From the NCBI RefSeq assembly GCF_000802965.1, contig NZ_JSAK01000008.1, positions 411,220-475,219 on the forward strand: 64,000 nucleotides of DNA. The letters run 5' to 3'. A model generated the notes under the pieces. The model had not been told where the DNA came from. It did no database searches and saw nothing but the letters and a program-made list of their open reading frames with translations. Position numbers and translations under genes: made by a program. This stretch comes from Pseudomonas fluorescens. GTDB lineage: Bacteria; Pseudomonadota; Gammaproteobacteria; Pseudomonadales; Pseudomonadaceae. Positions 54,852-56,330 of the stretch are shown in pieces (within the stretch, counting starts at the first letter, position 1; the number at the start of each line of letters is the position of its first letter).

Positions 54852-55214
54852 ATGAGCATCCAGAACATCGTCGACTTCAGCCAGGCCACCACCGCCGCCG
54901 AGCGTTATCGACCAGACCCGGCCAAAGTCCTCAAGGGCGACCCCGAGCAAGTGGTGTACAACCACTTCAACAGCCCATGCGGCCAGTTGAATGCGGGCGT
55001 GTGGGAAGGCGCCATCGGCCAGTGGCTGGTGAACTTCACCGAGCATGAATACTGCGAAATCGTTCAGGGTGTTTCCGTACTGCGCGACAACGACGGCAAC
55101 AGCAAAACCGTGCGCGCAGGTGATCGCTTCGTGATTCCGGCCGGTTTCCGCGGCACTTGGGAAGTGCTAGAGCCGTGCCGCAAGATTTACGTGGCATTCG
55201 AACAAAAGGCCTGA
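54852..55214 (+). CDS. Cupin-domain protein
   Basis: A 120-residue single-domain cupin. Motif 1 is about 51-68 (GAIGQWLVNFTEHEYCEI, with His as metal ligand) and motif 2 about 90-112 (GDRFVIPAGFRGTWEVLEPCRKIY). The likely fold is a beta-barrel of the EutQ-like small cupins; the metal and substrate are unknown. Starts MSIQNIVDFSQATTAAERYR. Divergent from kauB with 235 bases between. It might act on an amine or aldehyde downstream of KauB, but this is only positional. Confidence 0.85.
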   Translation: MSIQNIVDFSQATTAAERYRPDPAKVLKGDPEQVVYNHFNSPCGQLNAGVWEGAIGQWLVNFTEHEYCEIVQGVSVLRDNDGNSKTVRAGDRFVIPAGFRGTWEVLEPCRKIYVAFEQKA

Positions 55215-55318
55215 CCACGATAAATAATTACCGCACTGCGTAGCCTGCGCTGGCAGATCATTGGCGGGCGCTTCGATCGAAGAAGCGCCTCGTCAAGAAC
55301 TCATCGCAAGGAAGCAAC

Positions 55319-55540
55319 ATGGCTAACGCAACCACCTATACCGACGAACAGGTCCTCGAACTGATCAAATCTGTTGTCGGCTCGCCGTACTCCGAAGCAC
55401 TGCGCCAACAGGTCGAAGACACGACCGGCCGCCCTACTCGCCCGTGGGGCAACTACGTCGCCACCTACGACTCACGCGCAGAACGCATTAACCTGAACGT
55501 CAACGAAAGCGACATCATCATTTCCGTCTACTTCGGTTGA
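55319..55540 (+). CDS. I78-family peptidase inhibitor-like protein, no signal peptide
   Basis: A 73-residue protein starting MANATTYTDEQVLELIKSVV. The C-terminal half (TRPWGNYVATYDSRAERINLNVNESDIIISVYFG) has the I78 pattern R-P-x(4)-T-x-[DE]-Y-x-x-[ED]-R-[IL]-N with a closing -V-x-G, but the usual Cys is replaced and the domain lacks a conserved second half. The helix part is more like a short Met/Leu helix. No export signal, so it is expected in the cytoplasm, which is odd for a protease inhibitor. ATG at 55319 with GGAA upstream. Confidence 0.7.
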   Translation: MANATTYTDEQVLELIKSVVGSPYSEALRQQVEDTTGRPTRPWGNYVATYDSRAERINLNVNESDIIISVYFG

Positions 55541-55579
55541 TTTGACACGTTTGCAATCCCTTCACAAGGAAGTGAAACC

Positions 55580-55846
55580 ATGAAGACATTACTCGGCACT
55601 GGCCTACTGGCTGGTCTCATCTTTGCGTTGCCAGCGTACGCTGAAGAGCCGCCACCGCGATGTTATGCGCAGCGGGCAGACTTCCTCATCGGCCAGCGCC
55701 TGACACGGGAAGTCAGGGAGCAAGCTCGCGTGGAGGCGCGTGCGACCACGGTTACCGTCAACTCGCTCAGCCAGGAATATGAACCCGAGCGCCTCCGAAT
55801 CACTACCGATTGGGATAACGTGATCACTCGAATGAACTGCGGTTGA
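55580..55846 (+). CDS. I78-family peptidase inhibitor, exported
   Basis: An 88-residue protein with a signal peptide (MKTLLGTGLLAGLIFALPAYA). The mature part has RCYAQRADFLIGQRLTREVREQARVEARA and then QEYEPERLRITTDWDNVITRMNCG, matching the I78 inhibitor family (Cys pair bracket and F-x-x-G-Q-x-L-T motif). It would block serine proteases in the periplasm. GGAAGTG lies ahead of the ATG. It follows a related gene by 39 bases, so the two form a tandem pair, one secreted and one not. Confidence 0.82.
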   Translation: MKTLLGTGLLAGLIFALPAYAEEPPPRCYAQRADFLIGQRLTREVREQARVEARATTVTVNSLSQEYEPERLRITTDWDNVITRMNCG

Positions 55847-55874: not shown

Positions 55875-55910
55875 CAAAAAAGGCCCGTATCTCGCGATAC
55901 GGGCCTTTTT
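55875..55910. terminator. Bidirectional terminator between I78 genes and rpmG
   Basis: GGCCCGTATC (55882-55891) pairs perfectly with GATACGGGCC (55896-55905) around TCGC, with an A run before and a T run after, so it works for both strands. Confidence 0.85.
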
Positions 55911-55929: not shown

Positions 55930-56085
55930 TTACTTGATTTTGCCTTCTTTGTAGATCACGTGCTTGCGAACAACCGGATCAAATTTCTTGATCTCGATTT
56001 TGTCCGGAGTAGTACGCTTGTTCTTGTCGGTAGTGTAGAAGTGACCAGTACCGGCGCTCGAAATCAAACGAATCAATTCACGCAT
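55930..56085 (-). CDS. rpmG: 50S ribosomal protein L33
   Basis: A 51-residue ribosomal protein, [20 protein letters not shown] onwards, ending with [12 protein letters not shown]. The Cys-free form has no zinc site. Follows rpmB by eleven bases on the same strand, the normal rpmB-rpmG operon. Read from the sequence, stop TAA at 55930-55932. Confidence 0.97.
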
Positions 56086-56096
56086 GATTAGCTCCC

Positions 56097-56330
56097 TTAG
56101 ATCTTGCCGGCTTTGCGGATTTCGGCCAGCACGGCAGTGATGCCACGCTTGTCGATGATACGCATGCCTTTGGCAGATACGCGCAGACGCACGAAACGTT
56201 TCTCTTCTTCAACCCAGAAGCGGTGATGCTGCAGGTTCGGCAGGAAACGACGACGGGTTTTGTTGTTTGCGTGGGAAATGTTATTCCCAGTTACCGGACC
56301 CTTACCGGTAACTTGACATACTCTAGACAT
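56097..56330 (-). CDS. rpmB: 50S ribosomal protein L28
   Basis: A 77-residue ribosomal protein, [20 protein letters not shown], then [21 protein letters not shown] and [16 protein letters not shown]. Full length and canonical. First gene of rpmB-rpmG, with a strong promoter and a long leader carrying a stem-loop. Cys5 is the only Cys. Confidence 0.98.

Follow-up and report, generated by a model that had tools for sequence, protein, structure and literature searches.

The I78 fold and family are already known, and a characterized member is AFUEI, the Aspergillus fumigatus elastase inhibitor (PDB 3W0D/3W0E), which we take to be the type inhibitor of MEROPS family I78. Among the open-access full-text matches listed, no title or retrieved passage describes an experimental study of a bacterial I78 protein. 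The passages retrieved report AFUEI in liquid culture and describe it as an inhibitor of human leukocyte elastase (PMC8954713). AFUEI has two Cys residues and Met at P1. CI-2 and eglin c, eukaryotic members of the potato inhibitor I family (PF00280), are Cys-free domains. Ecotin is a periplasmic broad serine protease inhibitor of bacteria, and its fold is unrelated to the I78 fold. Within Pseudomonas, an I78 protein read by eye as a lipoprotein is found genus-wide, usually as one copy per genome; its P1 is Leu in 20 of 22 distinct copies (from 30 loci) and Met in the other 2.

Here, two adjacent I78-like genes, ORF1 and ORF2, are described from a 64,000-nucleotide stretch of Pseudomonas fluorescens DNA (contig NZ_JSAK01000008.1; the window), where they lie in a slot between a cupin gene and rpmG. 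ORF1 shares with AFUEI the predicted fold, the length, the loop with Thr at P2, and a conserved Arg, and ORF2 also has the Cys pair in common with it; ORF1 differs in having no Cys or export signal and in carrying Tyr at P1. The predicted fold of both ORFs is like that of CI-2 and eglin c, and ORF1 shares their lack of Cys, but the sequence profiles of the slot proteins place them closer to I78 than to potato inhibitor I. The slot genes share with ecotin the proposed role of a bacterial inhibitor of non-self serine proteases, whereas ecotin is exported and does not form a variable tandem set. The other I78 gene of this genome (L001; G000:C64:20770-20964) encodes the genus-wide lipoprotein; it lies outside the slot, scores 45 bits against PF11720, and has the same loop architecture as the slot proteins, and its P1 is Leu, unlike the two slot genes here. 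ORF2 finds a match at an E value of ≤0.01 in 145 of 149 Pseudomonas genomes, and from the 30 loci read we infer that these matches are all the lipoprotein. As far as the open-access literature matches listed show, three things are new, namely, the hotspot between the cupin gene and rpmG, the mixture of exported and non-exported products in it, and a non-exported branch that lacks the Cys pair.

Two tandem genes with different predicted destinations

ORF1 (55319..55540, plus strand; 73 aa) and ORF2 (55580..55846, plus strand; 88 aa) lie head to tail with 39 bp between them, and each start has a clear ribosome-binding site, AAGGAAG. They are bordered on the left by the cupin gene (Cupin_3; 54852..55214, plus strand; PF05899, E = 3.5e-23) and on the right by rpmG (55930..56085, minus strand), which is convergent and is followed by rpmB (56097..56330, minus strand). 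ORF2 begins with a hydrophobic segment ending in ALPAYA, which both a simple rule and inspection by eye identify as a signal peptide, and it carries Cys28 and Cys87, so that both features of exported I78 inhibitors, the signal peptide and the N-/C-terminal Cys pair, are present; ORF1 has neither. The original prediction, made from the DNA letters and their open reading frames, had described such a tandem pair with one exported and one non-exported product, and its description is correct in each of these respects. It had also left room for a signal peptide of ORF1 under another start. The ORF1 frame is open for 25 codons 5' of its ATG and contains no ATG, GTG, or TTG and no hydrophobic stretch, and an export signal from another common start codon is therefore ruled out, as the prediction had assumed. 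In four loci with ORF1 orthologs (six pairs), dN/dS is 0.08 to 0.17, with one pair near saturation at a dS of 1.5, and ORF1 therefore looks like a genuine gene under purifying selection; pairs of ORF2-type genes give 0.19 to 0.46.

The I78-like ending that had been noticed in both proteins was found in both sequences (ORF1, ...TYDSRAERINLNV...SVYFG; ORF2, ...QEYEPERLRITTD...RMNCG). A BLASTP search of ORF1 against ORF2 gives no match at an E value of ≤100, which rules out that they are recent duplicates, and a single hhalign comparison of the ORF1 family profile with the ORF2 family profile gives 97.6% and an E value of 2.9e-12. The two genes are not tied to each other. Among the 149 genomes that were sampled first, a single close relative of ORF1 is present, in G029 (82%), in the same chromosomal place but without ORF2; L213, the locus of this genome, and L126 carry ORF1 without ORF2, and L070, L096, L118, and L085 carry an ORF2-type gene alone, while in L074 and L080 an ORF2-type gene stands beside other I78 types. 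Among the slots examined, just two, those of the window and L119, combine an ORF1-type with an ORF2-type gene, and the co-occurrence of the pair across Pseudomonas that the prediction proposed to look for is thus not a general trait. Elsewhere, the C-terminal end of a 179-codon frame (L018; G108:C1:3260976-3261140, minus strand) resembles ORF1 (E = 0.0089), and it is possible that this frame encodes an I78-like domain fused to a further N-terminal part.

A variable slot between the cupin gene and rpmG

Slots were located by using rpmB as an anchor, which is found in 149/149 genomes, and were taken from 147 of them (genus set), omitting G000, which is the genome of the window, and G133, in which rpmB lies at a contig end. 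rpmG is present in 147/147 of these slots (136 at first and 11 more by a further search), and the cupin gene is on the left in 137 of them. A second, named set consists of the best 80 of 92 confirmed loci, all from Pseudomonas, of which 73 reach rpmG and 7 end before it; the two sets overlap in strains, and their counts should therefore not be added. ORFs in the slots were detected with a home-made profile built from 18 seeds in three rounds, which finds 77 I78-like ORFs, all 77 on the plus strand and transcribed toward rpmG. The same profile finds no I78-like ORF in reversed sequences and none in 939 kb of flanking sequence (13,997 frames).

The content of the slot is variable. I78-like genes are present in 35 of the 137 cupin-bordered slots of the genus set and in 26 of the 73 slots of the named set, in both cases with one to three genes per slot in changing combinations, and one of the 10 remaining genus-set slots, which have no cupin gene on the left, also holds one. 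I78-like genes are absent from the short slots: in the genus set, they occur in 0/91 cupin-bordered slots of ≤250 bp and in 35/46 longer ones, and in the named set, they occur in 0/47 short slots and in 26/26 longer ones. Among the 11 longer genus-set slots without I78, 7 were examined (L225, L228, L230, and L233 lie outside these 7), and 5 of these hold other cargo, namely, an element in L180 that we take to be IS3-like and to encode a transposase, an ORF of 466 to 475 aa in L224 and L227, and a gene in L277 and L291 that is presumably haloalkane dehalogenase-like, while L186 and L271 have no ORF of at least 46 aa. On a tree of 197 distinct loci, which was built from about 710 nt of the cupin gene and rpmG/rpmB and is short and without support values, the presence (59 loci) and absence (138 loci) of I78 require 38 changes, compared with 51 on average, and never fewer than 43, in 300 shuffles. 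The I78 content of the slot is thus patchy, with some vertical inheritance. I78 genes are missing from 13 of the window's 16 closest neighbors on this tree, the closest two among them.

Removal of four exact duplicates (L151, L168, and two in L174) leaves 73 distinct slot proteins. By a simple rule for export, with L118 and the second L119 gene set by hand to having a signal peptide, 41 of these are non-exported without a Cys pair, 16 are non-exported with a Cys pair, and 16 are exported with Cys, so that the cytoplasmic kind to which ORF1 belongs is the commonest here. The original prediction had regarded a non-exported I78 protein as unexpected, which is not supported by the slot, where 57 of 73 distinct proteins have no recognizable signal peptide. 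Two or three genes are found in thirteen slots (one strain is counted twice), and six slots, those of the window, L119, L074, L080, and L094 with its duplicate L174, mix the kinds of export; in all six, the non-exported gene or genes come first and the exported gene comes last, adjoining rpmG.

Family membership and predicted fold

ORF2 matches PF11720 (Inhibitor_I78) over the full profile (1 to 65) with 24.4 bits, which is marginal against the gathering cutoff of 23.6, whereas ORF1 is below the gathering cutoff and alone gives no match even at an E value of ≤1. The profile search that had been proposed to confirm both proteins as I78 thus succeeds for ORF2 only, and the assignment of ORF1, which fails with its single sequence, holds by three other routes that all reach AFUEI. 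A phmmer search of PDB sequences with ORF1 finds AFUEI at an E value of 0.0018; a profile of ORF1 and 38 non-exported slot relatives finds AFUEI at 2.3e-7 and CI-2 at 0.008; and AFUEI is the top structural match of the ORF1 model. The ORF2 family profile also finds AFUEI, at 4.3e-6, and the ORF1 family profile matches the third slot class, the non-exported proteins with Cys. Since the seeds of the home-made profile include slot proteins, PF11720 serves as an independent check on the slot set: at an E value of ≤0.01, it matches 32 of 39 non-exported slot proteins without a Cys pair, with ORF1 among the misses, 15 of 16 non-exported proteins with a Cys pair, and 15 of 16 exported proteins. PF00280 gives weak matches to 4 of the 39 and to 2 of 16 in another slot class.

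The AlphaFold models of ORF1 (pLDDT, 87.6) and ORF2 (pLDDT, 83.4, with a low-confidence N terminus) both consist of two helices, a strand, a long loop, and two strands. With the ORF1 model, Foldseek places AFUEI at the top (probability, 1.00; TM, 0.57/0.60; E = 0.003), and the ORF2 model aligns to AFUEI with a Z score of 7.2 over 60 residues and a root mean square deviation of 2.0. In Foldseek and VIA-align, AFUEI, CI-2, eglin c, and plant trypsin inhibitors make up nearly all of the 50 matches listed and belong to one inhibitor superfamily. Neither model reaches a Foldseek E value of <0.001, and the best Z scores are 6.6 and 7.2, in a range (6 to 7) that by the warning of the tool can reflect a common arrangement; the fold evidence therefore supports the sequence evidence and is insufficient alone. 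Taken with the profiles, both proteins belong to the I78/potato inhibitor I fold group.

Searches for known mobile or defensive cargo gave no clear match. PADLOC gives no match for ORF1 and an E value of 0.052 at best for ORF2, so that a known antiphage defense gene was rejected for both. PHROGs gives no match for either ORF at an E value of ≤0.1, and ORF1 as known phage or plasmid cargo was likewise rejected, with no match in the phage collection and one match of 34%, on a 1.17-Mb replicon of Pseudomonas silesiensis; ORF2 has no plasmid match at an E value of ≤0.001.

Terminator and leader

The prediction had also placed a shared terminator behind the two genes, and one is present between ORF2 and the convergent rpmG (55877..55910). 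It is a palindromic intrinsic terminator with a 15-bp stem, usable from both sides, in a region that folds with -26.1 kcal/mol (z = -5.5), and it is also present in G029. A fold below -12 kcal/mol is obtained for the 60 nt that precede rpmG in each of the 63 slots filled with I78 genes. A terminator consensus scan does not contain 55877 to 55910 in its output, and all nine Rfam matches listed at an E value of ≤1 span the terminator and are below the gathering score.

A sigma-70 scan of the locus found nothing. A 19-bp element, CGATAAATAATTACCGCAC (55218..55236, plus strand), is promoter-like by its position 82 nt before ORF1, and in L070 it recurs before the ORF2-type gene, identical at 19/19 positions and at the same distance of 82 nt. 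Weaker copies lie 78 to 85 nt before eight other ORF1- or ORF2-type genes, with the corrected start used for L118. Scores of at least 14/19 occur in 10 of 73 slot genes compared with 0 of 73 in mononucleotide-shuffled leaders (20 each), a count that is not independent, as the motif was derived from the same leaders. Eight of these ten genes are of the ORF1 or ORF2 type, while the elements of L265 and L270 stand at different distances and could be chance matches. The elements of L213 and L085 score 13/19, at 84 and 78 nt, a value that some shuffles also reach. The presence of a matching element before both kinds of gene suggests that ORF1-type and ORF2-type genes can occupy the same place behind one promoter-like leader. 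In Pseudomonas sp. PB120 (L070; 4364-4556), the ORF2-type gene is separated from the cupin gene by a second, similar hairpin of terminator-like form, and the same leader element follows this hairpin.

The ORF1 leader folds with a z score of -2.6 and contains an apical hairpin, GGCGCTTC-GATCGAA-GAAGCGCC (55267..55289, plus strand). The leaders of ORF1- and ORF2-type relatives in other species have a hairpin in about the same place with a different stem sequence, and RNAalifold on a MAFFT alignment of the leaders gives no consensus structure. Among ten ORF1/ORF2-type leaders, z is -2.6 to -5.4 in eight, -1.65 in L118, and +0.5 in L096 (the corrected start of L118 was used both here and in the hairpin comparison). 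Slot leaders overall have class means of -1.4 to -1.7, compared with -0.5 in controls, and a mean pairing of the Shine-Dalgarno sequence of 0.48 to 0.51 by class, which is not above the control value of 0.60 (calculated from 22 control ORFs, out of 50, in which a Shine-Dalgarno sequence was recognized, the controls being mechanical ORFs of at least 220 aa in the window and not verified genes); the hand-shortened starts of L118 and L254 enter these class counts. An RNA thermometer that masks the Shine-Dalgarno sequence was rejected on the basis of this pairing and of the RNAalifold result, and control of translation by the leader hairpin is not supported.

The predicted reactive loop

P2, P1, and P1' were assigned by alignment to CI-2 and AFUEI, and we take these positions to be the reactive site from what is known of CI-2. 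Alignments and loop counts cover 71 of the 73 distinct slot proteins, L232:2190 and L270:2089 being omitted for poor fit, with the starts of L118, L235, L254, and L269 shortened by hand. The Arg after the loop is present in 71/71 proteins, Thr occupies P2 in 52 and Ser in 8, and the P1' residue is acidic (Asp or Glu) in 59. P1, in contrast, is variable, with Lys in 20 proteins, Arg in 16, Leu in 7, Tyr in 5, Gln in 5, Met in 4, and other residues in the rest; its entropy of 3.04 bits is exceeded by nine columns. ORF1 fits the pattern of P2 Thr, acidic P1', and downstream Arg, with a predicted P2-P1-P1' of Thr49-Tyr50-Asp51 and the conserved Arg56. ORF2, with a predicted Ser64-Gln65-Glu66 and Arg71, has Ser at P2, and loops of its type are about four residues shorter and have Pro at P1 in L074, L118, and L119, which would fit a canonical inhibitor poorly. 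By its loop, ORF1 appears to be the more canonical of the two. One slot protein (L194:2227-2457) has a 10-residue insert just before the predicted reactive site.

The degree of P1 variation differs between subfamilies. In the non-exported, Cys-bearing MPVLPDQCD subfamily (23 sequences), P1, a column selected in advance by the alignment to CI-2, has more amino acid changes than any other of the 65 columns, with 7 amino acid changes among 8 codon changes compared with 120 of 342 overall (binomial P = 0.004); in a 17-sequence subset, the residue is Trp in 8, Phe in 4, His in 2, Tyr in 2, and Leu in 1. P1 is identical in 4/4 ORF1 orthologs, and in the MTTDLKQH-type proteins it is Lys in 9/9 aligned sequences and Arg in a tenth, L061.

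Proposed function and alternatives

It is probable that ORF1 and ORF2 are members of a fast-changing I78-type slot set and are canonical-loop serine protease inhibitors that act in two compartments on foreign targets. We infer that the slot proteins inhibit by tight, substrate-like binding. The exposed loop of ORF1 (...Val-Ala-Thr49-Tyr50|Asp51...) would enter the active site of a serine protease of the chymotrypsin or subtilisin fold, P1 would determine the specificity of each inhibitor, and the conserved Arg downstream would keep the loop in place; for ORF2, an inhibitory role is less certain because its loop is short. The exported members would guard the periplasm or the cell surface, and the non-exported members, which mostly have no Cys pair and so presumably need no disulfide, would guard the cytoplasm or act once freed by cell lysis. 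Together with the changing family content of the slot, this suggests a protection of both compartments of the cell from foreign proteases. The targets would most likely be proteases of predatory bacteria, protists, hosts, or competitors. Foreign targets are favored because the patchy presence and the P1 variation of the slot genes contrast with the near-constant loop of the genus-wide I78 lipoprotein. They are also favored by the protease content of the genome: a search limited to PF00082 (S8) and PF00089 (S1) gives no PF00082 match and two PF00089 matches, both read as periplasmic HtrA-type proteases and presumably AlgW and MucD.

The location of 57 of the 73 slot proteins together with the proteases of the cell itself, and the purifying selection on ORF1, would also be expected if ORF1 and the other non-exported members inhibited or regulated an endogenous cytoplasmic protease (Lon, ClpP, or an unrecognized one) and only the exported members faced outward. 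We regard this as unlikely, since the PF00082 and PF00089 results leave no cytoplasmic candidate in those two families, a presence in 35 of 137 slots is a bad fit to a housekeeping regulator, and P1 differs between close relatives. The loss of Cys and export in ORF1, together with odd loops such as that with the insert in L194 and the short ones with Pro at P1, might instead point to a fold that was reused for a non-inhibitor role, such as protein-protein binding in the cytoplasm, with the loop as a mere binding surface. That the original prediction was right to suggest another function for the non-exported protein seems doubtful to a similar degree: the ORF1 loop retains the P2 Thr and the invariant Arg, the slot proteins at large keep P2 Thr, the acidic P1', and the Arg, and substitutions in one subfamily are most frequent at P1, as would be predicted for a canonical inhibitor.

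Least probable is that I78 genes are one kind of small cargo without a common purpose, taken up by a slot that is no more than an integration-tolerant gap behind a strong terminator. The other cargo in L180, L224, L227, L277, and L291 agrees with such a gap, whereas the prevalence of I78-like genes in slots of >250 bp in both sets, their single orientation, and the leader element common to ORF1- and ORF2-type genes do not; the comparison of I78 frequency outside the slot covers the 939 kb of flanks. Returning to inhibitors of foreign proteases, a more specific version, which we offer as a tentative and rather less than even possibility, is that the slot is a dedicated hotspot in which sets of I78 genes with differing P1 residues and destinations are swapped between lineages, guard two compartments, and diversify under attack by foreign proteases. 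The attackers could be serine proteases of predatory bacteria or protists. Bdellovibrio is reported to enter and kill Gram-negative bacteria as its prey, and one of its proteases, Bd2269, to lyse Escherichia coli cells that express it internally (PMC12546842); as a hypothesis, Bdellovibrio is a candidate source of the target proteases. If true, the hotspot would be a protein-level counterpart of a defense island.

I78-type genes are near-universal in the sampled Pseudomonas genomes, yet in the literature matches listed the characterized member is the fungal AFUEI. The present locus raises the questions of which proteases drive the variation of the loop and why an inhibitor should be kept in the cytoplasm, and the slot, with a varying loop on a constant scaffold, is a natural series of P1 variants.
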